Part shown: in pieces, positions 1,100-39,743 of the stretch
Layout of the letters: each line of letters begins with the position of its first letter
Position numbering within the stretch: the stretch's first letter is position 1
Source: Candidatus Multivorans thiocomprendens
GTDB taxonomy: Bacteria > Acidobacteriota > Thermoanaerobaculia > Multivoradales > Multivoraceae
NCBI GenBank assembly: GCA_027493375.1
Contig: JAPVWO010000056.1
Coordinates: 1-39,743 of the forward strand
Direction: 5' to 3'
Length of the DNA: 39,743 nt
Program-made: the position numbers and the translations under genes
The notes under the pieces: model-generated
What the model was told of the DNA's origin: nothing
What the model saw: only the letters and a program-made list of their open reading frames with translations
The model's database searches: none

Positions 1100-2353
1100 A
1101 TGACTGCCATGAAGACGATGTCGAGAGCGATGGTGCTGGCGCTGGCCTGGCTGATGGCCGGGCCGGGCCTGCCGGTCGGCGGTGTTCCGGAGGGCGCGGC
1201 GCAGACGGTCGAGCCTGCGACGGCGGAGGTCCGGAACCTCGACTTGGCGATCGCGGCGCAGCGCAAGGTGGTCGGCGACCAGACCCGGTCCGCGGATCGC
1301 GCGAGCGCGCTGAACGACCTGGCGAACCTGCTGGAACTGCGCGGGGATGTCGAGGGGGCGTTCGAGCACTACCTGGCCGCGATCGCGGCGGACGGCGCCT
1401 GGGCGCCCGCGCACTACAACTTGGCGCTGCTCGCGTACACGACCGGCGACAGTGAGCTGGCCTCGGCGCACCTCGAGACGGCGGTCGAACTCGATCCGGG
1501 GAACGCCTGGGCGCGTTACCAGCTCGGCCGGATCGCGGACGACGACGGAGACGCGGCCGCTGCCGTGGATCACTACGTCCACGCCCTGAGCCTGGACACG
1601 CGCCTCGCCTTCACCGATGTGAACCCGCACTTCGCGGTCAACCGGTTCGCCACCGAGGTGCTCCTCAAGGCGGATCGAAGCCGGCTCGAGACCCTGCCGC
1701 CGCGCACCTACTCCCAACCGGGCCGCATCAGCAGCCTGCTGTTGCCGAGGGTGGAGCAGGGAGCGGCGGCCGGTGACGCGGGCGACGCCGTCGAGGCGGC
1801 GGAGGCAACAGAGACGTCCGAGCCGGACGGGGATCTTCCCCGGAGAGCGAGCCGGGTGCCCGGAGGCGAGGGCGCGCGCGCCGACGGCATAGGAAGAGTG
1901 ATCCAGTCGCCGGGGAGCTTGCCGGCGCCGGCCACCAGCGACCGTGTCCTGAACGGGCCGCTCGACCGCGCCGCTCCCCTCCAGGCCCTCGAAACGGACT
2001 GGGACGCCGGCGACGCAAAGCTGCAAGCCGCCGACTCCGAGCGTGAGTCGGACGCAGGGCGCACCGGGGAGCGGCCGCGGGTCTTCACCCGGGATCACCT
2101 GCGAACGCGCACGCTCGGGGCCGCTCCCATGGTGACCGGTGCACGGCCGGGCGGCGCTCCGGCACAGGCGATCCCGCTCGGGGGTTCCCGCGGCGGCGTT
2201 CAGCTCGGAACGCCGGTCGGCCCCGGCGGCAGGCAGTCGACTCCTCCCGCGGCCGGGACCTTCCGCGGCAGCGGTGGACGTTTCCAGCCCAGCGCTCGCA
2301 GCAGCGCGCAGCTCGAGACGACGATCCGCCGGCCCACCGTGCCCGCGCCCTAG
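1100..2353 (+). CDS. exported TPR-repeat protein of unknown function
   Basis: This is a 417-residue protein. An N-terminal hydrophobic stretch (about residues 9-35, ending near AAQT) looks like a signal peptide, so a periplasmic location is inferred. Residues about 60-185 form three to four tetratricopeptide repeats (AHYNLALLAYTTGDSELA, ARYQLGRIADDDGDAAAA), a scaffold for protein contacts. The C-terminal half is low-complexity, rich in Gly, Pro, Ala and Arg, with no domain I recognise. ATG at 1100 is used; ATGs at 1109 and 1118 are also possible and would shorten the region before the signal peptide. Its stop overlaps the stop of the convergent tldE-like gene (2350-2352), so no room is left for a terminator. 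The function cannot be assigned. Confidence 0.8.
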   Translation: MTAMKTMSRAMVLALAWLMAGPGLPVGGVPEGAAQTVEPATAEVRNLDLAIAAQRKVVGDQTRSADRASALNDLANLLELRGDVEGAFEHYLAAIAADGAWAPAHYNLALLAYTTGDSELASAHLETAVELDPGNAWARYQLGRIADDDGDAAAAVDHYVHALSLDTRLAFTDVNPHFAVNRFATEVLLKADRSRLETLPPRTYSQPGRISSLLLPRVEQGAAAGDAGDAVEAAEATETSEPDGDLPRRASRVPGGEGARADGIGRVIQSPGSLPAPATSDRVLNGPLDRAAPLQALETDWDAGDAKLQAADSERESDAGRTGERPRVFTRDHLRTRTLGAAPMVTGARPGGAPAQAIPLGGSRGGVQLGTPVGPGGRQSTPPAAGTFRGSGGRFQPSARSSAQLETTIRRPTVPAP

Positions 2354-3780
2354 CCGATCGCCTCGACCTGCAGCCCGGTCAGCAGCAGGGTCGGAGCGCC
2401 GACTGCCCCGGGCGCGGGCAGGAAGCGAAGATCGTCGCCGATGGCGCGGATGCCCTGGAGCAGTTGCCGCACGGAGCCGGTCAGCCTCACCCTGGGGGCC
2501 TCTCCCAGGACGGCGCCGCGACGGATGACCAGGCCGATCGCGTCGACTTCGAAGTGTCCCTCTCCCAGACGTCCCGCGCTGCCGTTCGTCGAGGGTTCGA
2601 ACGTCGCATGACACTGGCCGTCGTGCGCCCTGTCCAGCAGGTAGCAGCCATGCACGATGCCGGTCCGGATCGACTCCGCGGGTTCGGAGCCGCCCGCGAT
2701 GTAGAGGTGGGAGTGGCAGAGTTCCGGTAGCGCTCGCCATCCCGACCTGCGCCGGCAGCCGGCGGCGGCGAAGCCCGACCAGCCGTCGTCCTCCCAGCTC
2801 AGGAGGGGCTCGCCGGGTTCGCCGTCGTGTACCAGGGCCACGGCCCGGGTCGGCACGCCCTCGTCGTCCAGCGCCGCGCTCATCCAGCCCGCATCGAGGG
2901 CGCCGTCGTCCACGATCTGCAATTGCGGCGGCCCGAGCGGCCGGTCGGCGCCGAGTTTCCGCAGCCGCCGCCAGCCGTTGCGCCCCCGCAGCAGAGGCGC
3001 GAGCAGGGCCAGCAGGTAGCAGCCGAGTGCCGGCGACACGGCAACCTCGCCGGCCGGCAGGAAGGGTGGAGCGGGGGCCGTCGCCAGCGTCAGACGCTCC
3101 GCGATCTCGCTCGCGATGGAGTCGGCGCTGAGCAGGTGGAGGTTCGAGGCCGCGCGGTAGAGCCTGCAGTGTCCAAGACGGCCGTCCCGTGAAGCGGCGG
3201 AGTCCAGTTCAACCGTTGCGAGCCGCAGCGCGGTCCGTCCGGTGACGCCGGTCGTGCTGGCGAGCACCGCGGCGCTGGCTCCGCAATCCAGCCGACCCCG
3301 GATGAGACGGGCCTCGGGCATGCGCTCGCCGAGACCCCGCAGGACGCCTTGCAGGAGTGCCAGGCCGGCCGCTTCCTCGTCGTCCGGCTCGCGTTCGCCC
3401 GCGCCGGCACTCGCGGACGGCGTAATCCCGGGCGAGGTTTCGGAGGATGGCGCCGGCAGCCTGAGGGTGCCCGGCCGCGGGGAGTGGCGGCTGAGGCGCT
3501 TCCATCCGTTCGGCTCCGGGAGGGGCCCGGAGTCGGCGAGAAAAAGGGCGCGGTTGGCGCCCCCGGCGCGCAGCGCCCACCCCCGCTCGTCCAGGATGGA
3601 CACCTGGGCAGGCAGGTCGTCCGGGTCGGCGGGCGGGGGCGTCGTCCAGGGATCGATCTCTATCCGGCGGGTCCGTCCGACCTTCACGTAGAGCTCGGCA
3701 CCGGCGGCGCCGGTCCGTTCGCGCACGGCGCCCAGGGCCAGCTTGAGGCTCCGCGTGCCGGGCAGCCGAGCGGACTTCAA
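2350..3780 (-). CDS. TldE/PmbA-family protein (partner of the TldD-like protease)
   Basis: This is a divergent member of the TldD/PmbA family, whose non-catalytic TldE partner pairs with TldD in a metalloprotease that degrades or matures small peptides in the cytoplasm. The evidence is the C-terminal pattern ([20 protein letters not shown] and [10 protein letters not shown] at the end), typical of TldE tails, and its position directly after the tldD-like gene. A TTG at 3780 is chosen as start (476 aa): it overlaps the TldD stop as TTGA, which implies translational coupling. An upstream in-frame ATG at 3861 would overlap tldD by 85 bases and is less likely. The N-terminal half is weakly conserved. 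Its stop abuts the TPR gene stop from the other strand. Family assignment is good; the substrate is unknown. Confidence 0.75.
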
Positions 3781-10825: not shown

Positions 10826-11491
10826 GTGAACATTGGTGGCACGTTCTGGAAGTTGATGAACGAGGGCGGCCCCGTCATGTGGCCATTGCTCGCTTTCTCC
10901 GTCATCGCGGCAGCGGTGGTGGTCGAGCGACTGATTGCGCTGCGGCGGGCCCGGATCAACGTTCACGAGTTCCTCCCCAAGGTGCGGAAGGCGCTTGTCG
11001 TGAACCGCTCGATTCGTGAAGCGGTCAAGGTATGCGAGGAGTACCGCGGGCCGGTCGCCTCGATCCTCAAGGCCGGCCTGATGAAGTACGGCCAGCCCAA
11101 GGAAGACGTCGAGAAGACGATCGAGAACGCGGCGCTGTTCGAGATGGGCCGCCTCGAGCGCGGCCTCGCGGTGCTGGCGACGACGGCCAACGTCGCCCCG
11201 CTGCTCGGGTTCTTCGGCACGGTGACCGGCATGATGGCCGGTTTCGACGCCCTGGCGGCACAGGGCCTGTCGAACCCCGGCGCAGTCGCCACCGGCATCA
11301 AGGAGGCGCTGACCACGACCGCCGGCGGTCTGGCGGTCGCCATTCCGACGCAGCTCGCCTACAACTACTTCATGAGCCGGATCAACAAGTTCGTCCGCGA
11401 CATCGAGACGTCGGCGAACATGCTGCTCGAGACCTTCGGCGAGATGGAGCGGAGCGGCATCCCGCCGGAGTCCGGCGGCGACGCCAGCTAG
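10826..11491 (+). CDS. exbB: ExbB/TolQ/MotA-family proton channel subunit
   Basis: ExbB is the inner-membrane subunit that, with ExbD, converts proton-motive force into movement of TonB (or Tol). The 221-aa protein has a first membrane segment at about residues 17-38 and two more in the conserved C-terminal block (VAPLLGFFGTVTGMMAGF and ALTTTAGGLAVAIPTQLAY), which carries the family Thr and Gly/Pro pattern. GTG 10826 is chosen because GAGGAGGT lies 6 bases upstream, the best ribosome-binding site in this operon. It is followed 6 bp later by exbD. With two ExbD genes and tonB downstream, a TonB system is more likely than Tol; no tolA, tolB or pal is present. Confidence 0.9.
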   Translation: MNIGGTFWKLMNEGGPVMWPLLAFSVIAAAVVVERLIALRRARINVHEFLPKVRKALVVNRSIREAVKVCEEYRGPVASILKAGLMKYGQPKEDVEKTIENAALFEMGRLERGLAVLATTANVAPLLGFFGTVTGMMAGFDALAAQGLSNPGAVATGIKEALTTTAGGLAVAIPTQLAYNYFMSRINKFVRDIETSANMLLETFGEMERSGIPPESGGDAS

Positions 11492-11497
11492 ATCGAC

Positions 11498-11926
11498 ATG
11501 AAGCTCAAGGCAACCATCGAGCACAAGCCGAACATCCCGACGGCCTCGATGGCGGATATCGCCTTCCTGCTGATCATCTTCTTCATGCTGACGATCACCT
11601 TCGAGGTCGACAAGACCCAGGTGCAGTTGCCGAAGACGACGCTCAGGTACGAGATCCCGAAGCAGTCCGCCTACGTCTCGATCGATCCGAACGGGCGCAT
11701 CCGGGTGTCGGACGGCAACGAACAGAGCGCGCTGGTCAGCGCGGCCGACGAGGTGCTCTCGATGGCCGCGGGGGTCATCGCGATGGACCCCCAGAAGGTC
11801 TTCGTGGTCAAGTCCGACGGCGACGTGCAGTGGGAGAAGGTCGACGAAGTGATCGACGCGCTGAAGCGGGCCAAGGTGCGGGACGTGTACCTGCTGTCCG
11901 ATCAGCGAACCGTCACCGACGGGTAG
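11498..11926 (+). CDS. exbD: ExbD/TolR-family protein, first copy
   Basis: This is a 142-aa biopolymer-transport protein with one N-terminal membrane helix (SMADIAFLLIIFFMLTITF, about residues 17-35). That helix contains the conserved Asp20, which carries protons through the ExbB channel. The rest is a periplasmic domain that touches TonB and the cell wall. It follows exbB after 6 bp and precedes a second, divergent exbD after 25 bp. Paired ExbD paralogues behind one ExbB are common in Acidobacteriota-like genomes and may form a mixed dimer; that is inference. The start ATG gives MKLKATIEHKPNIPTAS. Confidence 0.9.
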   Translation: MKLKATIEHKPNIPTASMADIAFLLIIFFMLTITFEVDKTQVQLPKTTLRYEIPKQSAYVSIDPNGRIRVSDGNEQSALVSAADEVLSMAAGVIAMDPQKVFVVKSDGDVQWEKVDEVIDALKRAKVRDVYLLSDQRTVTDG

Positions 11927-11951: not shown

Positions 11952-12389
11952 ATGAGACTTGATCGTGATCGCCCGGACGATGAGATCCCGACCTCCTCGA
12001 TGGCGGACATCGCCTTCCTGCTGATTGTCTTCTTCATGATCACGACGACGTTCACCGCGACCCGCGGACTGGACTTCGCGCTTCCCGAGGACGACGACGA
12101 TCCGCCGGTGGTCGAGAAAGAGGAGTCGGTGCTGATCGAGATCCTGCCGACCGGCGAGTTGATCGTCGACCAGGATCCGATGCCGTTGCACGAGATCATC
12201 CCCTACCTGAAGCCGAAGCTGGAGCGGAACCCGAAGAAGCCGGTGATCATCCGGCCGGACACGGCGACGCCGTACCGGTACATGGTCCAGGTGTACGACG
12301 AGCTGCGCCAGGGCGAGGATCACGGGTTGGCGGAGCCGATCAACATTTCCGTTCCCACGCAGCGCGAGATCCAGAGCTTCTGGTACTAG
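11952..12389 (+). CDS. exbD: ExbD/TolR-family protein, second copy
   Basis: This 145-aa paralogue of the preceding gene has the same membrane block with the channel Asp (SSMADIAFLLIVFFMITTTF, Asp18) but a different periplasmic domain. It includes an acidic cluster EDDDDPP after the helix and ends in QREIQSFWY. Outside the membrane helix the two copies differ strongly, so this is an old duplication with divided roles rather than redundancy. It is followed by an 83-bp gap with a weak GAAGAGGGG site before tonB. Confidence 0.9.
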   Translation: MRLDRDRPDDEIPTSSMADIAFLLIVFFMITTTFTATRGLDFALPEDDDDPPVVEKEESVLIEILPTGELIVDQDPMPLHEIIPYLKPKLERNPKKPVIIRPDTATPYRYMVQVYDELRQGEDHGLAEPINISVPTQREIQSFWY

Positions 12390-12472: not shown

Positions 12473-13231
12473 ATGAGTGACGAGAACCTCGAACAGGCTG
12501 CATCCCCCGCGGAAGACTCCCCGGCAGACGGGCCCGCGAAGGACGAAGCGACCGCGCTGACCTCCGCCGAGCAGGGCCTGCTGACCTACGTGCAGGAGAC
12601 CCGCGAGGACAACAAGACCTTCCGCTACTCGCTGGGGCTGGCGGTCATCCTCCACGGCATCCTGCTGATCGTGAAGCTGCCCGACCTGTACGGCGACGTG
12701 GTGGCGCCGCCGCCGAAGCCCAAGGTCTTCGTCGTGCAGCAGGTGCGCTTCAAGCCGCCGCCGCCGAAGGAAGAGCAGCAGATTCCGAAGCCGAAGTCGA
12801 AGAAGGTTCCGATCCCCGATCCCACGCCTGACGAGCCGGAGCCGATCCGGATCGACGAGCCCGAGGAGATCGACATTCCCGAGGTCGACGATCTCGATCT
12901 CTTCGACCTCCCCGAGGCGCCGCCACCGCCGGAACCGACCGGGCCGATCTACGTCACCGGCGACGTGACGAAGCCGGAGAAGATCAACGAGATCCAGCCC
13001 CAGTACACCGAGATCGCGCGCAAGGCGCGGATCCAGGGTGTCGTCATTCTCCAGGCGACGATCGACAAGAACGGCGACATCACGGACATCAAGGTCCTGA
13101 AGCCCCTGCCGATGGGCCTTGCCGAAGCCGCCGTGTCGGCGGTGCAGCAGTGGAAGTTCAAGCCGGCGACGCTGAACGGCAAGCCGGTCGCCGTCTACTA
13201 CAACCTGACCGTCAACTTCCAGCTTCAGTAG
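12473..13231 (+). CDS. tonB: TonB family energy transducer, copy 1
   Basis: TonB spans the periplasm and transmits ExbB-ExbD energy to outer-membrane receptors. The 252-aa protein has a cytoplasmic tail of about 50 residues, longer than in E. coli TonB. A membrane helix follows at about 52-69 (YSLGLAVILHGILLIVKL), then a Pro-rich periplasmic linker (KPPPPKEEQQIPKPKSKKVP, then acidic Pro/Glu repeats). The C-terminal TonB domain spans about 170-252 (ARIQGVVILQATIDKNGD, AVSAVQQWKFKPATLNGKPV). It is in the exbB operon. A second copy at 15229 is nearly identical at DNA level from 12598 to 12890. No TonB-dependent receptor is present, so the cargo is unknown. Confidence 0.92.
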   Translation: MSDENLEQAASPAEDSPADGPAKDEATALTSAEQGLLTYVQETREDNKTFRYSLGLAVILHGILLIVKLPDLYGDVVAPPPKPKVFVVQQVRFKPPPPKEEQQIPKPKSKKVPIPDPTPDEPEPIRIDEPEEIDIPEVDDLDLFDLPEAPPPPEPTGPIYVTGDVTKPEKINEIQPQYTEIARKARIQGVVILQATIDKNGDITDIKVLKPLPMGLAEAAVSAVQQWKFKPATLNGKPVAVYYNLTVNFQLQ

Positions 13232-13250: not shown

Positions 13251-15029
13251 ATGACTACTCGCCGATCCGTACTCGCACTTGCTGCTATCTGCGCACTGCT
13301 GACCGCGTCGGCGGCCTTCGCCGGCTGGGACGAAGGCGTCGCCGCATTCAGGTCCGGCAACTACGCTCAGGCGATCGCCGAGTTCCAGCAGTTCGTCGAG
13401 GAGCGCCCGGACCAGCAGGCCGGCTACCAGATGCTGGGCCGTTCCCTTCTCCGGGGCGGCAAGGCCGGCGAAGCGATTGCCGCGTTCCAGAAGGCGATCG
13501 AGATGAAAGCCGACGACATCGGCAGCCAGGTGTTGCTGGGTCAGGCCTTCTACCAGAGCGGCAAGCCCAGGGAGTGCATCTCGACCCTGAGCAGGCTCAA
13601 CATCGGCGGGTTGCCGGCGAACATCCAGGTCGGGGTGTACGAGACGCGCGGCGCCAGCTACGCGCGGCTGGGCAACACCGGCAGCGCGGCTGCCGACCTG
13701 GGGAGGGTTGCCGACCTGAAGCCCAGTGACGCCGGGGCTCGCTTCGAGTACGGCCAGATGCTCCACAACGATGCGCAACTCGACCCGGCGATCGCCGCCT
13801 ATGAGCGAGCGATCTCGATGGACGGAAGCCAGGCGGAGTGGAAGAGGGTTCTGGTGAACGCGCTGAAGGTCAAGGGTCGGCGCACCCAGGGCTCGGCCAA
13901 GACCGGCGTCTACCGCAAGGCGGAGGACGTGGCCAGAAGCCTGGTAGGGGCCAGCCCCTCGTACGACAACCTGCTGCTGCTCGGCGAGGTGCAACTCGGC
14001 GCCAAGAACTACGACTCGGCGGCTTCGACCTTCCAGCAGGGGATCTCGAAGAAGAGCAACGACTGGCACGCGCACTTCTACCTCGGGCAGGCGTTCGGCT
14101 CCCTCGAGCGTTACAGCGACGCCGAAGGACCGCTGAACACCGCACTCCCGCTGGCTTCCGATGAAGCCGACAAGAGGCAGATCCTCGACTATCTCGGCTT
14201 CGTGCTCTCGAAGCAGAACAAGTACGCGGCGGCGATTTCGGCCTATGAGCGCGCGGGCAACGCGGGCGGCGCGGCTCGGGTCCGTGAGAACCAGCAGATC
14301 GCCCAGGAGGGTGCGCCGGCGTCCCCGCCGGCTGCCGCCGAAGGCGGCCAGAGAGACGCGCCGGCCGTTAGGCCGGCTCCGCATAGCCGCAGCTGGACTA
14401 CGGCAGTGGGCGAGATGACCCCTCCTGGCAGCTTGCTGGCTTGGGCGGCGGCCTGTCTTGCCCTGAGTCCGGCGGCCTTCGCGGACTGGCAGGCGGGCAT
14501 CGACGCTTACAAGGCGTCGAACTTCGAGCAGGCCGTGGCGGAGTTCCAGCAGTTCGTTGACGAACGGCCGGATCAGCACGCCGGCCACCTCATGCTCGGC
14601 CGCTCGCTGTTCGCCGCCGAGCGCTACAGGGCTGCGGCCTCCACCCTGCGGCGGGCGATCTCGCTCGATTCGGACGATTGGCAGGCGTACGTCGTTCTCG
14701 GTCAGACGTTCGCTCAACGAGGGCGCTACAAGCGGGCCGAGGTCCCGCTTCGGGCCGCTCTGCGATTGGCCGACGGCGAGGACAGGAACCTGGTCTGGAA
14801 CTGGCTCGGCTTCGTCTTGTACGGGCAAGGGCGATACGCAGAGGCGGCGGACGCCTACCACAGCGGCGGCAACTCCGAAGCCGCTCAGGAGGTGCGGGAG
14901 GCCCAACGGCGCGCGAGGGAGGAAGCGGAGGACTTCGAGGCCCGGGTGGAGGCGATAGGTCGGGGAGGACCGCCGAAGTGGCTCCCCGGGGACTTCTCTG
15001 ACGACTCCGGAGTCGCTGGGGGCCGCTGA
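13251..15029 (+). CDS. fused double TPR protein with an internal signal peptide
   Basis: This is a 592-codon frame made of two related secreted TPR proteins. Part A (residues 1 to about 352) has a signal peptide (LALAAICALLTASAAFAG) and many tetratricopeptide repeats. Part B starts at Met389 (14415) with its own signal peptide (LLAWAAACLALSPAAFAD), and its first repeat AVAEFQQFVDERPDQHAGH closely copies AIAEFQQFVEERPDQQAGY of part A. Between them, 14309-14380 is a copy of a dispersed palindromic repeat read in frame as APASPPAAAEGGQRDAP. Part A seems to have lost the coiled C-terminus still visible in the decayed copy at 16200-16406. Part B may be translated separately from 14415. GGAGG lies before the ATG at 13251. 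A periplasmic partner role with TonB is inferred from context. Confidence 0.75.
   Translation: MTTRRSVLALAAICALLTASAAFAGWDEGVAAFRSGNYAQAIAEFQQFVEERPDQQAGYQMLGRSLLRGGKAGEAIAAFQKAIEMKADDIGSQVLLGQAFYQSGKPRECISTLSRLNIGGLPANIQVGVYETRGASYARLGNTGSAAADLGRVADLKPSDAGARFEYGQMLHNDAQLDPAIAAYERAISMDGSQAEWKRVLVNALKVKGRRTQGSAKTGVYRKAEDVARSLVGASPSYDNLLLLGEVQLGAKNYDSAASTFQQGISKKSNDWHAHFYLGQAFGSLERYSDAEGPLNTALPLASDEADKRQILDYLGFVLSKQNKYAAAISAYERAGNAGGAARVRENQQIAQEGAPASPPAAAEGGQRDAPAVRPAPHSRSWTTAVGEMTPPGSLLAWAAACLALSPAAFADWQAGIDAYKASNFEQAVAEFQQFVDERPDQHAGHLMLGRSLFAAERYRAAASTLRRAISLDSDDWQAYVVLGQTFAQRGRYKRAEVPLRAALRLADGEDRNLVWNWLGFVLYGQGRYAEAADAYHSGGNSEAAQEVREAQRRAREEAEDFEARVEAIGRGGPPKWLPGDFSDDSGVAGGR
14309..14380 (+). 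repeat. dispersed double-hairpin repeat, copy A (inside a coding frame)
   Basis: It has two GCCGGC-based palindromes: GCCGGCG-TCCC-CGCCGGC at 14315-14332 and GCCGGCC-GTTA-GGCCGGC at 14360-14377. It shares GGTGCGCCGGCGTCCCCG with copies at 25018, 36131 and 38889, and ends in GGCTCC like the 38889 copy. It sits at the joint of the two TPR halves and contains no stop in the TPR frame. Confidence 0.8.
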
Positions 15030-15228
15030 AGCCGCGCCTTCCAGGGAGTCCGGCCGCGTCCGGGTCTCGGGGGGCTCCAGCGGGCAGACGACCAGCGATT
15101 GGCAATGACCTGGCCTCGGCCGAGGTCGTGGGGGTCTTCGTTCTGAAGGTCGGAATAGGCCTAAACCGACTGGACGTTGGAACTCAGACACCACGCGGCA
15201 GAACACCCGACCGAGGAGGGAGAACCGG
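15030..15228. repeat. intergenic DNA whose right half duplicates the tonB copy 1 upstream region
   Basis: I see no gene in these 199 bp. From about 15146 to 15228 the sequence aligns with 12393-12472, just before the first tonB: shared blocks include CTGGACGTTG, CAGACACCA and AACCGGATG. The match shows that the duplication that made the second tonB included its leader. The left half (15030-15145) follows the TPR stop and shows nothing recognisable. Confidence 0.7.
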
Positions 15229-15969
15229 ATGTGTGACGAGGAGCTCGAACAGGCGGCATCTCCGGTGGAGGCGCCCGCGAAGGAGGAACCGGCCGCGCCG
15301 ACCTCCGCTGAACAGGGCCTGCTGACCTACGTGCAGAAGACCCGCGAGGACAACAGGGCCTTCCGCTACTCGTTGGGGCTGGCGGTCATCCTCCACGGCA
15401 TCCTGCTGATGGTGAAGCTGCCCGACCTGTACGGCGACGTGGTGGCGCCGCCGCCGAAGCCCAAGGTCTTCGTCGTGCAGCAGGTGCGCTTCAAGCCGCC
15501 ACCGCCGAAGGAAGAGCAGCAGATCCCCAAGCCGAAGTCGAAGAAGGTCCCGATCCCCGATCCCACGCCCAAGGAGCCGGAGCCGATCCGGATCGACGAG
15601 CCCGACGAGATCGACATTCCCGAGGTCGACGCTCTCGATCTCAGGCTCCCCGAGGCACCGCCTCCGCGGGAACCGGAGGGGCCGATCAACGTCGCTGGCG
15701 ACGTGACCGAACCGGAGAAGCTGAGCGCTCCGCAGCCCCAGTACACGGAGATCGCGCGCAAGGCGCGGATCCAGGGCATCGTGGTCCTCCAGGCGACGAT
15801 CGACAAGAACGGCGACGTCACCGACACGAAGGTCCTGAAGCCCTTGCCCATGGGGCTGGCCGAGGCCGCCGTGTCGGCGGTGGAGCAGTGGAAGTTCAAG
15901 CCGGCGACGCTGAACGGCAAACCGGTCGCCGTGTACTACAGCCTGACCGTCACCTTCCAACTCCAGTAG
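15229..15969 (+). CDS. tonB: TonB family energy transducer, copy 2
   Basis: This 246-aa paralogue of the TonB at 12473 has the same layout: cytoplasmic tail, membrane helix YSLGLAVILHGILLMVKL, Pro-rich linker, C-terminal TonB domain ending in AVYYSLTVTFQLQ. The central part is almost identical to copy 1 even at silent positions, while the N-terminus and the stretch after the linker differ and are a few residues shorter. It has a GGAGG-like site (GAGGAGGGAG) before the ATG. Its stop is directly followed by the ATG of the decayed TPR gene. The frame is intact, so it is probably functional and could serve a different receptor set. Confidence 0.9.
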   Translation: MCDEELEQAASPVEAPAKEEPAAPTSAEQGLLTYVQKTREDNRAFRYSLGLAVILHGILLMVKLPDLYGDVVAPPPKPKVFVVQQVRFKPPPPKEEQQIPKPKSKKVPIPDPTPKEPEPIRIDEPDEIDIPEVDALDLRLPEAPPPREPEGPINVAGDVTEPEKLSAPQPQYTEIARKARIQGIVVLQATIDKNGDVTDTKVLKPLPMGLAEAAVSAVEQWKFKPATLNGKPVAVYYSLTVTFQLQ

Positions 15970-16406
15970 ATGACTAACTGCCGATTCGTGTATGCCTTGA
16001 TCGCGTGCTGCCTCCTGCTGGCCGCCAACGCCGCGTTGGCCGACTACGAAGCTGGAGCTGCGGCCTTCAGGTCCGGGAACTAGCCACGCGAAGCTGGGGA
16101 ACACGGGAAGCGCCGCTAACGAGAGCCCTGGAGTTGGCCTCAGGCGTGGACGCGAAGGCCATCTGGGCGTATCTGGCCTTCGTGCTCGAGAAGCAGAAGA
16201 AGTTCAGTGAGGCGATCGAGGCTTACGGGAGGGCCGGAGATCCGGAGGGAGCTGCCCGTGTCCGGGAGAACGAGCAGATCGTCGCCGACAACAAGGAAGC
16301 GGACGAGCACAACGCCACGATCGAGGTGATCAAACAGCGGATGGACGAGATCCAGAGGGAACTGGACGAGATCACCGGAGGCTCAAAGGAACCGCCGCGC
16401 CGCTAG
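15970..16406 (+). pseudogene. decayed third TPR gene (pieces in three frames)
   Basis: The first 37 codons (MTNCRFVYALIACCLLLAAN to AAFRSGN) match the signal peptide and start of the TPR gene at 13251, then hit a TAG at 16081. Directly after, SHAKLGNTGSAAN (from 16082, another frame) matches SYARLGNTGSAAA of that gene near 13656. From about 16130, in a third frame, LELASGVDAKAIWAYLAFVLEKQ matches LPLASDEADKRQILDYLGFVLSKQ near 14146. So two internal deletions of roughly 300 and 430 bp have occurred. The tail (EQIVADNKEADEHNATIEVIKQ and on to RR-stop) is coiled-coil-like and probably shows the ancestral C-terminus. The 19-bp spacer with the ribosome-binding site before the 13251 gene is missing here. 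Confidence 0.85.
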
Positions 16407-16492
16407 CGGTCAGCCAGCTTGCGGCGCAGGATCTCCTGGGCGGCTCGAGGTTCGGCGCTGCCGCGTGAAGCTCTCATGATCTGGCCGACCAG
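16403..16492 (-). pseudogene. out-of-frame remnant of the gatB 3' end
   Basis: Read from 16492 in a frame different from the gatB frame, this encodes LVGQIMRASRGSAEPRAAQE and then ILRRKLADR-stop. This is the normal end of GatB (family pattern LVGQVMKxxxGxxxP...iLxxxL). Its stop overlaps the stop of the decayed TPR gene on the other strand. It shows that the gatB change is an internal deletion of about 190 bp not divisible by three, not a simple early stop. Confidence 0.85.
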
Positions 16493-17705
16493 TCGATAGC
16501 TCGCCGGAGTCGACCAGGGCGACTACGGCGGCGAGGCGCTCCGGCGCGACCGCTCGCTCCACGTCGATGCTCCGCTCCTTCAGCTCGCGCAGGAGTTCCG
16601 TCATCACCCAGTTGGCGATCGTTCTCTTGCCCTTCGGGTGGGCGGCGACGGCCCGCTCGTAGTAGGTCGCCAGGGCGACGCTGCCGGAGAGCAGCGCCGC
16701 CTCTTCCGAGCGTAGCCCGTAAGCGTCGCGGAAACGGGCGCTCTTCTTCCACGGCAACTCCGGAAGCTGGTTCGCCTGCCGCTCGATGCGTTCGCCGGAG
16801 AGCACTACGGTGGGCAGGTCGGGCTCCGGAAAGTAGCGGTAGTCGTGCGCCTCCTCCTTCGACCGGAGCGACCGGGTCACGCCGGTCGAGGGCTCGAAGC
16901 TCCGTGTCTCCTGCTCGACCCGGCCGCCCGTCGTCAGCACGTGCAACTGGCGTTCCCGTTCGTACTCGAGCGCCTTCGCCACGTGGCGGAAGGAGTTCAG
17001 GTTCTTGACCTCCGTCTTCGTGCCGAGTTCCGTCTGGCCGACCGGCCGGAGCGAGAGGTTCGCGTCGCAGCGCAGGCTGCCCTCCTCCATGTTGCCGTCG
17101 CTGGCGCCGGTGTAGAGCAGGACCTGGTGGAGCACCTGCAGGTAGGCCTGCGCGTCCTCGGGCGAGCCGATCTCCGGCTCGGTGACGATCTCCACCAGGG
17201 GCACGCCGCAACGGTTGAAGTCGACCAGGCTCCGGCCCGGGAGCGGTCCCCCTCCGGGCACTTCGTGGAGCAGCTTGCCGGCGTCCTCCTCCAGGTGGAG
17301 CCGGTGGATGCGTACGGTGTGCCCTGACGGCAGCGGTACGCCTCCTCCCTCGGCCAGGGGCTGGTCGTACTGGCTGATCTGGTAGCCCTTGGGCAGGTCC
17401 GGATAGAAGTAGTTCTTGCGTGCGAATACCGACCGGGGCCGGACTTCGCAACCGAGGGCCAGCGCCAGGCGGATGGCAAGGTCGACGGCGTGCTGGTTGG
17501 TCACCGGCAGCGTGCCCGGATAGCCGAGACAGACGGGGCAGACGAGCTCGTTCGGTTCGGCTCCGAAGCGGTTCTCGCAACGGCAGAACATCTTCGTCCG
17601 GGTGCGTAGCTGGACGTGGACCTCCAGTCCAATGACCGTTTCCCATCCCGTGTCGACGGGACCTCCGACGGCCCCCGCCCCGGTCGTGCTCTGCGCTACG
17701 CTCAT
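16410..17705 (-). CDS. gatB: Asp/Glu-tRNA(Asn/Gln) amidotransferase subunit B with a damaged C-terminus
   Basis: GatB of the GatCAB complex phosphorylates and amidates Glu-tRNA(Gln) or Asp-tRNA(Asn). The body is fully conserved: ETVIGLEVHVQLRTRTKMFC, CPVCLGYPGTLPV, NYFYPDLPKGYQISQYD, DFNRCGVPLVEIVTEPEI, DGNMEEGSLRCDANLS and TEVKNLNSFRHV. The tail is not: after LVDSGELS (about residue 403) the frame continues with unrelated residues to a stop at 16410. About 62 residues normally found here are missing, and the conserved end lies in another frame (16403-16492). The protein is 431 aa instead of about 475. ATG 17705 is the only good start and overlaps the ATG of the divergent gene at 17704. gatA and gatC are not in the window. 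A local assembly error is possible. Confidence 0.88.
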   Translation of the reverse strand: MSVAQSTTGAGAVGGPVDTGWETVIGLEVHVQLRTRTKMFCRCENRFGAEPNELVCPVCLGYPGTLPVTNQHAVDLAIRLALALGCEVRPRSVFARKNYFYPDLPKGYQISQYDQPLAEGGGVPLPSGHTVRIHRLHLEEDAGKLLHEVPGGGPLPGRSLVDFNRCGVPLVEIVTEPEIGSPEDAQAYLQVLHQVLLYTGASDGNMEEGSLRCDANLSLRPVGQTELGTKTEVKNLNSFRHVAKALEYERERQLHVLTTGGRVEQETRSFEPSTGVTRSLRSKEEAHDYRYFPEPDLPTVVLSGERIERQANQLPELPWKKSARFRDAYGLRSEEAALLSGSVALATYYERAVAAHPKGKRTIANWVMTELLRELKERSIDVERAVAPERLAAVVALVDSGELSTGRPDHESFTRQRRTSSRPGDPAPQAG

Positions 17706-33324: not shown

Positions 33325-35658
33325 GTGGACTTCCGTTCCCGCCTGAACCCGGAACAACTCGCGGCGGTCACCCACGACGGCGGCCCGTTGCTCGTCGTCG
33401 CCGGCGCCGGATCGGGCAAGACGCGGGTCATCACCTACCGGATCGCCTGGCTGAACGCCGAGCGGAACGTCGAGCCGTGGCGGATCGCGGCCGTCACCTT
33501 CACCAACAAGGCCGCGGACGAGATGCGCGGGCGGGCGCTCGACCTGGTCGGGGGCAATGCCAGCGTCTTCGTCGGCACCTTCCACCGTTTCTGCGTCCGT
33601 CTGCTGCGGCGCTACGGCGACCGGGTCGGTCTGCGGCCGGACTTCGCGATCGTCGACGCGCCGGACCAGTTGCGGCTGATCAAGGCGTCGCTCAAGGCCG
33701 AGAACCTCGACGAACAGGCGTTCCAGCCGCGCGCGGTCCAGGGGCGAATCAGCGGGGCGAAGAACCGCCTGCTGACGCCGCCCGCGTTCGAGAAGGAGGC
33801 CGAGGACTTCTTCGACCGTCACGTCGCCCTCGTGTTCCGCCGCTACCAGGCCGAGCTGCGCCGAACCGGCGGCGTCGACTTCGACGATCTGATCGCGCTC
33901 GCCGTACGCCTCCTGCGTGACGACGAGGAGGTCGGCGCGCGGGTCAGGGGACGGTTCCGCCACCTGCTCGTCGACGAGTTCCAGGACACGAACGCGGCCC
34001 AACTGGAACTGGTCAAGAACCTGGTGATCGACCCGGACGGTACCGTCTCGGGCCTGACCGCGGTCGGCGACGAGGACCAGAGCATCTACGGCTGGCGCGG
34101 GGCCGAACTCGACAACCTGCTGCGGTTCGAGAAGCACTTCCCGGGCGGCTGCGTCCGCAAGCTGGAGCGGAACTACCGCTCGACCCAGAACATCCTCGAT
34201 GCTTCGGGCGCCGTCATCTCCCGCAACGAACAGCGCCGGGGCAAGACCCTGTGGACGGACAAGGGCGCCGGCGACCCCCTGGAGCTCTTCTACGCCGGCG
34301 ACCACGAGGACGAGGCGCGCTGGGTCGTCGGGCGGCTGGCGGAACTGCGCACGGAGGACTTCGAGTTCGGGGACATGGCCGTGCTGGTGCGGACGAACGC
34401 GCAGACCCGGGCCATCGAGGACCAGTTGCTGCGCAACGAGATCCCCTACTCCCTGGTCGCCGGCATCCGCTTCTACGAGCGCGCCGAGGTGAAGGACCTG
34501 ATCGCCTACCTGCGGGTCATCGCCAACCCGCGGGACAACCTCTCCCTGCGCCGGATCCTGAACCAGCCGCGGCGGGGCATCGGCGGCAGGACAGAGCAGG
34601 TGCTGCTCGAGCGCGCCGCCGAAATGGGCAACTCCCTGTGGGACGCGATCCGCCTCGACCCCCTGCAGGAGTTGCCGGCCCGCGGCCTGCGAGCGGTCCG
34701 GAACTTCAAGGGCCTGATCGAGGCGCTGCGCGGGGAGGCGGAACGCCAGCCCCTGGCCGAACTCGTGCGGGGCACGATCGTCGCCGCCGGCTTCGAGGCG
34801 CTCTACGGCAAGGGCGACGAGGAGGCCCAGGAACGGCTGGAGAACCTGAACGAGCTGGTGTCTTCGGCCCACGATTTCGAGACCCTGCACGGCCTGAGCG
34901 GCGTTCCGGCGAGGACCGCCGCCGTTCCCGGCGACGGGGAGGGCACGGATACCGGCGAGGCGCCCCTCTTCGACGACGGGTCGAACGCGGCGGAGCCAGC
35001 CGTCAGTCCCCTCGTGAATTTCCTGGACTACGTCTCCCTGGTCAGCGACACGGACGGCCTGAACGCCGAGCTGGGCGTCGCCCTGATGACCCTGCACAGC
35101 GCCAAGGGCCTCGAGTATCCGGCCGTCTTCGTCACCGGTCTCGAGGACGGCCTGCTCCCGCACTTCCACGCCGGCTTCGCGGCCCGCGACATCGAGGAGG
35201 AGAGGCGGCTGTTCTACGTCGGCATGACCCGGGCCGAGCAGCGGCTGTTCCTCAGCGGCTGCCGCCGCCGGATGGTCGCCGGACAGTTCCAGGACCAGCA
35301 GCCGTCGCCCTTCCTCGCCGACCTGCCGGAGGAACTCGTCGAAACCACGCGCAGCACGGAACTCTGGGGCGGCCCGCGGACCGCCGGCGTGCGCAGCTAC
35401 TTCGGCGGCGACCGCGCCGGCGGAGGTGCGTCCTTCCGGGCAGCGCGAGACACCGGCGCCAGGCCGGCAAGGAAACCGCCGAGCGAACGGATTGCCGGCG
35501 TGCTTCGACCCGGCGCCGTCGTTCGCCATGCGACCCTGGGCAAGGGCGTCGTCCTGCAGCTCGACGGAGACGGCGAGAACGCGAAGCTGACCGTCTTCTT
35601 CGACAAGGCCGGCAAGCGGAAGCTCGTCCGCCGCTACGCCCCGCTCGAGGTGCTCTAG
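33325..35658 (+). CDS. pcrA: ATP-dependent DNA helicase PcrA/UvrD (SF1)
   Basis: This 777-aa 3'-5' helicase acts in excision repair, replication-conflict handling and recombination control. All SF1 motifs are in order: NPEQLAAV (Q), VAGAGSGKTRVITYR (Walker A), FTNKAADEM, GTFHRFCVRLL, VDEFQDTN (Walker B), GDEDQSIYGWRGA, LERNYRSTQNIL, TLHSAKGLEYP, and EERRLFYVGMTRAE. The C-terminus from about 725 (VVRHATLGKGVVLQLDGDG, LTVFFDKAGKRKLVRRY) is the Tudor-like tail that in PcrA/UvrD contacts RNA polymerase. GTG 33325 is taken as start, 4 bp after glmU; a start inside glmU at 33277 is possible but adds residues unlike the family. The 3' end is 10 bp from a convergent tRNA gene. Confidence 0.95.
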   Translation: MDFRSRLNPEQLAAVTHDGGPLLVVAGAGSGKTRVITYRIAWLNAERNVEPWRIAAVTFTNKAADEMRGRALDLVGGNASVFVGTFHRFCVRLLRRYGDRVGLRPDFAIVDAPDQLRLIKASLKAENLDEQAFQPRAVQGRISGAKNRLLTPPAFEKEAEDFFDRHVALVFRRYQAELRRTGGVDFDDLIALAVRLLRDDEEVGARVRGRFRHLLVDEFQDTNAAQLELVKNLVIDPDGTVSGLTAVGDEDQSIYGWRGAELDNLLRFEKHFPGGCVRKLERNYRSTQNILDASGAVISRNEQRRGKTLWTDKGAGDPLELFYAGDHEDEARWVVGRLAELRTEDFEFGDMAVLVRTNAQTRAIEDQLLRNEIPYSLVAGIRFYERAEVKDLIAYLRVIANPRDNLSLRRILNQPRRGIGGRTEQVLLERAAEMGNSLWDAIRLDPLQELPARGLRAVRNFKGLIEALRGEAERQPLAELVRGTIVAAGFEALYGKGDEEAQERLENLNELVSSAHDFETLHGLSGVPARTAAVPGDGEGTDTGEAPLFDDGSNAAEPAVSPLVNFLDYVSLVSDTDGLNAELGVALMTLHSAKGLEYPAVFVTGLEDGLLPHFHAGFAARDIEEERRLFYVGMTRAEQRLFLSGCRRRMVAGQFQDQQPSPFLADLPEELVETTRSTELWGGPRTAGVRSYFGGDRAGGGASFRAARDTGARPARKPPSERIAGVLRPGAVVRHATLGKGVVLQLDGDGENAKLTVFFDKAGKRKLVRRYAPLEVL

Positions 35659-35668
35659 CGGGGTGCCG

Positions 35669-38875: not shown

Positions 38876-38888
38876 GCAGGCCGTCGCA

Positions 38889-38963
38889 CACTGGGTGCGC
38901 CGACGTCCCCGCCGGCTGCCGTCGCCGACGGCCCATGAAACGCGCCGGCCGAAGGCCGGCTCC
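38889..38963 (+). repeat. dispersed double-hairpin repeat, copy D
   Basis: It starts with CACTGGGTGCGCC and a left hairpin with one mismatch (GCCGACG-TCCC-CGCCGGC), then an internal GCCGTC-GCC-GACGGC palindrome. The right hairpin GCCGGCC-GAA-GGCCGGC (38944-38960) is perfect. It ends in GGCTCC at the integrase stop codon, so on the minus strand its right hairpin lies just downstream of the integrase gene and could act as an imperfect terminator (no T-run). Confidence 0.82.
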
Positions 38964-39743
38964 TACTCGTCGCTGTCTTCGAAGTACCGTGCGACGGCGC
39001 CGTTTGCGGCGAGTTCGTTGGCGGCGTAGCGGGTCGCGGTTCTCTCGTCGGTCCACCTGCCGGCCTGCATGAGTTCGGCGGTCGAGGCTCCCCTGGCAAC
39101 GAGTGACTGGGCGCTGCCGACACGGAGCGAGTGCCCGCTCATCCTGCCCTCGATCCCCGCGGCCCGCGCGCGGCGCCGGATGACCCTGGGGACGGTGCTC
39201 TCGCTCAGCGCCGTCGCTCTGGCACGGGTTCCGTCCCTGGAGATGGCGCGGAACAGCGGTCCGGAAGAGACGCCCGAAGCTTCTCGCCAGGCGCCGATGG
39301 CGGCCATCGTCGTGCGACAGACGTAGAGCGTCTTGCCCTCTCCCTCCTGGTCCGTCTTGCTCCGGCGCAGCCTGAGACTGCCACTCCCGTCCTCTCCTTC
39401 CTCCAGGTGCTCCACCTCGACGGCGGCGAGTTCGCTGATCCTCAGAAAGGCGTCGCTACCGAGGCGCAGCAGCGCGGCGTCGCGCAGGCCGAGCAACGTG
39501 CCCTCTGCCGCCGCGAGGCGGGCGACCGCGTCGACGTCTTTCCGTCTCAGGCCGTCGACCTGACCGCGCCCTCGCTCGGCGTGTTGCCTCTTCAGGGCGC
39601 GGAGAGTGCGGGCCGTCAGTGGTCCGCGCGGGTCGTCCGCGTCAGCGAAACGCGCGGCGGCGCCGATCGCTGCGTGAATCAGTGACAGCGACGCCGGGGC
39701 GAGTCCCCGTTCGGCCTCTTCCTTGAGGAACGCGGCAACGATC
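38963..39743 (-). CDS. tyrosine recombinase (integrase/Xer family), 5' end beyond the window
   Basis: The minus frame is open from the right edge to a stop at 38963, 259 visible residues of about 300. Residues 1-65 form the SAM-like core-binding domain (FLKEEAERGLAPASL, the AIGAAARF helix, RTLRALKRQHAERGRGQVDG). The catalytic domain has Arg101 (LRISEL), Lys129 (SKTDQEG), His204-Ser-Leu-Arg207 (GHSLRVG), Trp230 (AGRWTDE) and the nucleophile Tyr239 (TATRYAA). All five to six active residues are present, so it looks functional. It could be a phage or element integrase, or a Xer-like resolvase. Only a later TTG can serve as a start inside the window, but the coding pattern runs further upstream. 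Confidence 0.9.
   Translation of the reverse strand, partial: IVAAFLKEEAERGLAPASLSLIHAAIGAAARFADADDPRGPLTARTLRALKRQHAERGRGQVDGLRRKDVDAVARLAAAEGTLLGLRDAALLRLGSDAFLRISELAAVEVEHLEEGEDGSGSLRLRRSKTDQEGEGKTLYVCRTTMAAIGAWREASGVSSGPLFRAISRDGTRARATALSESTVPRVIRRRARAAGIEGRMSGHSLRVGSAQSLVARGASTAELMQAGRWTDERTATRYAANELAANGAVARYFEDSDE

Follow-up and report, generated by a model that had tools for sequence, protein, structure and literature searches.

Two exported TPR genes joined through a dispersed palindromic repeat, probably by a 132-bp deletion, in a draft acidobacterial genome

Deletion of a stop codon is a standard route to gene fusion. Protein sequence can also be drawn from short dispersed palindromes: REP elements and Rickettsia palindromic elements are mostly intergenic but are sometimes read in frame as 20 to 30 residues, and some REPs abut or overlap the ends of ORFs (PMC3733652, PMC10969869). 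In Rickettsia and other genomes, palindromic repeats have been turned into protein sequence by insertion (PMC10969869, PMC3733652). Among periplasmic TPR proteins, CpoB (YbgF) of the Tol-Pal system combines TPRs with a coiled coil and is a partner of TolA (PMC7391070). A literature search on TPR genes in ExbB/ExbD/TonB operons or on repeat-bridged fusions returned analogies only. The locus described here shares with known stop-deletion fusions a pair of adjacent, co-directional paralogues, the first of which lacks its 3' end and stop so that one frame results; unlike the usual case, its linker derives from a repeat, and each partner has a signal peptide. Like REP and Rickettsia elements, the joint is a short dispersed palindrome read in frame; those elements have been described as inserting into genes, whereas here an intergenic repeat was probably pulled into the frame by deletion.

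The locus lies in a 39,743-nucleotide stretch (herein the window) of a 4.84-Mb draft genome, in 339 contigs, from an uncultured member of the Acidobacteriota. Among named genomes, its closest relatives were assembled from metagenomes and are labelled Acidobacteria, Thermoanaerobaculia or Holophagales; codes of isolates such as COS and RHO may point to an origin in marine sponges. The gene order is RuvC, ExbB/TolQ-like, two ExbD/TolR-like, TonB1, A, B, TonB2 and a decayed gene C, facing gatB (Table 1). Gene adjacency suggests that A and B had a role in a TonB/Tol-type operon. A shares with CpoB the combination of TPRs and a coiled coil and a place beside genes of the TolQ/ExbB, TolR/ExbD and TolA/TonB types; it differs in having the coiled coil at the C terminus and a TPR solenoid that far exceeds the three repeats of CpoB. 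A family match was rejected, as the tol_pal_ybgF model (TIGR02795) scores 61.7 bits against the fusion and 45.3 against A of one relative (G001) versus a cut-off of 90.1; CpoB may thus serve as an analogue of A, by analogy only.

Table 1. Features of the locus, in window coordinates
Feature	Position	Strand	Remarks
ExbB/TolQ-like, operon head	10826-11491	+	Pfam PF01618
Two ExbD/TolR-like genes	11498-11926, 11952-12389	+	Pfam PF02472
TonB-family protein 1 (TonB1), directly 5' of A	12473-13231	+	PF03544; 99.7% DNA identity to G001
Part A: TPR solenoid behind a signal peptide (residues 1-24)	13251-14308	+	Orthologue 390-391 aa; here cut at residue 353
Deletion junction	14308-14309	.	132 bp of G001, G002 and G011 missing; 0-1 bp microhomology
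Dispersed palindromic repeat, three hairpins, without the conserved left end AC[T/C]	14309-14382	+	Translated as GAPASPPAAAEGGQRDAPAVRPAP
Former A-B spacer, now coding	14383-14414	+	As far as the B start, conserved in G001 and G011
Part B, with an ATG of its own (Met389): signal peptide (about 389-411), a short TPR domain and a helix at the C terminus	14415-15029	+	
TonB-family protein 2 (TonB2), paralogue of TonB1	15229-15969	+	Lies between A and C in G005, G008 and G017
C, decayed paralogue of A	15970-16406	+	At least 2 internal deletions versus the intact G017 copy; coiled-coil end kept
gatB	16410-17705	-	191-bp deletion at 16491/16492 versus relatives

Translation of 13251-15029 gives 592 codons without a stop. 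In this GC-rich genome the opposite strand is itself open for 664 codons, so the length of the frame alone is little evidence; the evidence that counts for a fusion frame is that both halves have homologues. An earlier note on this DNA had proposed two secreted TPR proteins sharing one frame, with a second signal peptide from Met389, and this proposal stands: Pfam TPR repeats lie on either side of the joint, and among the 19-residue stretches of the 592-residue protein, hydrophobicity is highest in the N-terminal one (residues 7 through 25; mean Kyte-Doolittle 2.19) and in a signal-like segment opened by Met389 (residues 393 through 411, GSLLAWAAACLALSPAAFA; mean 1.60). A stop codon within 14300-14400, looked for there, is absent from the given sequence. 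The region around the start of B (GTGGGCGAGATG) is the same as in the relatives, and B yields NG86 dN/dS values of 0.20 to 0.28 against G002, G001 and G011, although it is broken in two of these (G001 and G011). Judged by these ratios, B is a real gene that has been under purifying selection.

Comparison across the genus bears on how the two halves came together. A close orthologue of A is present in 20 of 21 genomes, the window's own included (the exception is G012), and all 12 aligned orthologues carry a coiled-coil end, typically ENREADEFNENIAELERQREELRRQLEEVPGATNEPPRR, which Part A lacks, as the earlier note had remarked. B-type genes follow A in three other genomes: in G002 B is an intact gene of its own, in G001 it is frameshifted and in G011 it has an internal deletion. 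In all three, A keeps its coiled-coil C terminus and its own TAG (by direct translation, after 391 codons in G001 and 390 in G011), followed by a short spacer, a complete repeat and then B. The open-frame lengths listed by the search for G001 and G011 (607 and 555) disagree with this translation, which is the one used here. In G001 and G011, B shares the reading frame of A, and the G001 spacer holds a TAA that would still part them. The earlier note had proposed checking relatives for separate genes without the repeat; the genes are separate in these three, but the repeat is present in each. Partial repeat copies also lie 3' of A's stop in four genomes without B (G005, G008, G010 and G018). 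At this site, then, the repeat predates the fusion. The same long frame without repeat-like DNA at the joint was not seen in the relatives.

Relative to G001, G002 and G011, the window has lost an identical 132 bp between CAGGA and GGGTGCG, a segment that held A's codons from residue 354 on with their stop, the spacer and the leftmost bases of the repeat. Microhomology at the 14308/14309 breakpoint amounts to 0 to 1 bp, and the retained repeat and spacer are 92.5% and 94.3% identical to G001 and G011. Since the same 132 bp are missing relative to all three relatives and the repeat is without its left end, a deletion made the fusion; since 132 is divisible by three and A and B were already co-framed in G001 and G011, the frame continues out of A, across the repeat and on into B. 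The partners are separate in G001, G002 and G011 and the missing DNA includes the stop, as in fusion by stop deletion. We consider it probable that an ancestral arrangement of tonB1, A, palindromic repeat and B, in which an operon of the ExbB/ExbD/TonB type would have encoded A and B as two distinct exported TPR proteins, was converted by this deletion, essentially without microhomology, into one coding chain, in a process resembling decay. Comparison with the relatives shows that the event took A's coiled coil together with the stop codon, the spacer and the initial bases of the repeat.

Searched against this genome, the joint (14309-14382) has matches of 84 to 100% identity at 40 or more sites, and copies of about 75 to 80 bp are 82 to 100% identical; the earlier note had likewise recognized it as one copy of a dispersed repeat. 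Many short, near-identical palindromic copies in one genome are what is expected of a REP-like family of dispersed repeats. A genus-wide search, with 22 candidates scored per genome, gave at least 20 to 27 matches per genome in all 21 genomes; outside the genus, matches were absent or weak. Directly 5' of the core, AC[T/C] is found in all 28 other copies lined up from this genome, and the core GGGTGCG itself in 26 of them, with one base different in the remaining two; the joint has GGA in place of AC[T/C]. Mobilization by a RAYT transposase, as in a REPtron, was considered and rejected: PF01797 (Y1_Tnp) has no match in this genome (95% complete), whereas 5 of 14 control genomes matched. No Rfam family was found at the joint.

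These data bear on the suggestion of the earlier note that A lost its stop when the repeat arrived at its end. Two points speak for such a transposition into the 3' end of A. In-frame insertion is known of palindromic elements in Rickettsia (PMC10969869), and the repeat family differs between close genomes at two intergenic sites: G001 has about 120 to 130 bp of extra palindromic repeat-like DNA at window 2346-2354 and about 75 bp at 35654-35667, where the window has none or 12 bp, though it is otherwise 99% identical. On this comparison, the family does turn over by presence and absence between close genomes. At the joint, however, the same complete repeat already occupies the same place, between the stop of an intact A and B, in G001, G002 and G011; the window copy is shortened on the A side; and an insertion would add sequence, whereas 132 bp of ancestral DNA are missing. 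The same position of the repeat between two genes sets the locus apart from the Rickettsia type, in which the element inserts into an ORF. What stands of the original interpretation is the ancestral separation of the genes, their joining in one frame through the repeat and the loss of the coiled coil; arrival of the repeat as the cause is extremely improbable.

Several other copies in this genome have features of their own. Some, at L051 and L073, lie inside a longer inverted repeat of their flanks (GGAACTGGCCGCC ... GGCGGCCAGTTCC in L051), as if the element occupied a hairpin loop. Frames with an outer membrane efflux protein domain (L059:1477-2946, minus strand) and a sulfatase domain (L057:1418-3073, minus strand) each continue into a repeat copy near their end, and repeat-encoded tails are possible in both. 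Many spurious ORFs cross repeat copies; a Pfam domain was present in 2 of 10 tested.

The RNA fold of the joint contains three hairpins (about 14315-14332, 14334-14348 and 14360-14377) rather than the double hairpin first described, and its stability is mildly above that of shuffled sequence (z of about -1.5 to -1.9). Stalling or drop-off of ribosomes at these GC-rich hairpins, with B translated from 14406 or 14415, would yield two proteins from the deleted locus. The three strong hairpins and the B start region shared with the relatives fit such a scheme, and because that start region is unchanged, some separate B may also be made. There is no in-frame stop between A and B, however, and elongating ribosomes normally melt such hairpins. 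The region has no terminator-like site on the plus strand, and no sigma-70 promoter was found in it. Two separate products are rather unlikely, and a single polypeptide is the most likely product of the fused frame.

The structure model of this polypeptide has two well-predicted TPR solenoids (about 26 through 353 and 407 through 540; pLDDT >90 over most of residues 30 through 345), a disordered stretch at residues 355 through 400 (pLDDT <50) and a long C-terminal helix (542 through 571). The breakpoint coincides with the end of A's last well-predicted helix (338 through 353); the TPR fold of A is still complete and the conserved coiled coil is gone. A PDB fold search retrieved generic TPR solenoids only. 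The ribosome would read from A through the repeat into B, producing one 592-residue chain, exported via the signal peptide of A, in which two TPR solenoids are separated by a linker of about 45 disordered residues that would end in the former signal peptide of B. This segment is predicted to be borderline in hydrophobicity for membrane insertion.

The same deletion might instead have produced an adaptive fusion, in which a two-module exported TPR protein replaces A and B and the C-terminal helix of B substitutes for the coiled coil of A. The frame has been kept, B is intact here and broken in G001 and G011, and the model combines two good solenoids with the long helix; yet in stop-poor, GC-rich DNA about one such event in three would stay in frame by chance, the coiled coil retained by every aligned orthologue is lost, and there is no sign of spread past one genome. 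We regard this alternative as quite unlikely. More specifically, it is very doubtful that the product is a selected new exported protein in which the repeat served as a stop-free flexible linker for deletion fusion of tandem secreted paralogues and the signal peptide of B became an internal membrane anchor.

We favor the reading that the fusion was probably accidental and would reflect the decay of a redundant tandem array rather than a selected innovation. Other genes near the fusion show decay: C, gatB, and B of G001 and G011. The decayed copy of A had been placed at 16200-16406; its coiled-coil end is indeed kept, but its true extent is larger (Table 1). In gatB, the 191-bp deletion shifts the frame of the final 26 codons and costs the protein most of its YqeY tail. 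Against neutral decay, B is intact in the window and the 5' part of A is strongly conserved. We read the fusion as recent and its function as putative.

The fusion is known from one draft assembly, and a contig that joins two related strains, with A and B separate in reality, has to be weighed. The window is about 99% identical to G001 over most of its length, but about 14111-16451 is far more diverged than its flanks, with B at 84% identity; there are nine SNPs in 14111-14282 versus two in 13251-14110. This tract likely stems from homologous exchange in one lineage or the other. Because its divergence far exceeds that of the flanks, recombination or strain mixing also acted near the junction, and because a chimeric contig could look similar, the tract bears on the assembly question. 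An artefact would accord with the 339 contigs, with the divergence of 14309-16491 from G001 and with gene-damaging deletions, in A and in gatB, at both ends of that segment. At the breakpoint, however, the 0 to 1 bp shared, and likewise the gatB junction, offer an assembler no overlap for a mis-join. Divergence already begins inside A, about 200 bp short of the deletion. On the gatB side, the 40 bp leading up to the junction match G001 exactly, and the tract seems to end ahead of it; the deletions are therefore not clearly the edges of the tract. The rest of the assembly yielded neither a missed 3' end of A nor a second gatB; 16410-17705 is the sole gatB found. A lethal gatB defect was considered as proof of misassembly, an argument weakened by the AsnRS and GlnRS models, both of which have matches above cut-off in the genome: with these genes present, loss of GatCAB may be tolerated and a damaged gatB need not be lethal. 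On balance, an assembly or strain-mixture artefact is unlikely.

With outgroups at hand, the steps at this locus are cleanly ordered, the repeat first and the fusion second. An intergenic repeat can thus become protein sequence via a neighboring deletion as well as by insertion and, since this deletion route exists beside insertion, lists of "in-frame palindromic elements" may mix the two. They can be separated by whether the end of the element is intact. The combination of repeat and stop deletion, with outgroups that order the events, makes this a tidy example; it is not a new kind of system and is otherwise ordinary.

A further difference from G001 lies at the end of the window (38877-39743), where collinearity stops at a repeat copy (38883-38963). 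Past this copy, the window aligns with G017 (91% identity) as far from A as would be expected, which makes it probable that G001, not the window, was rearranged.
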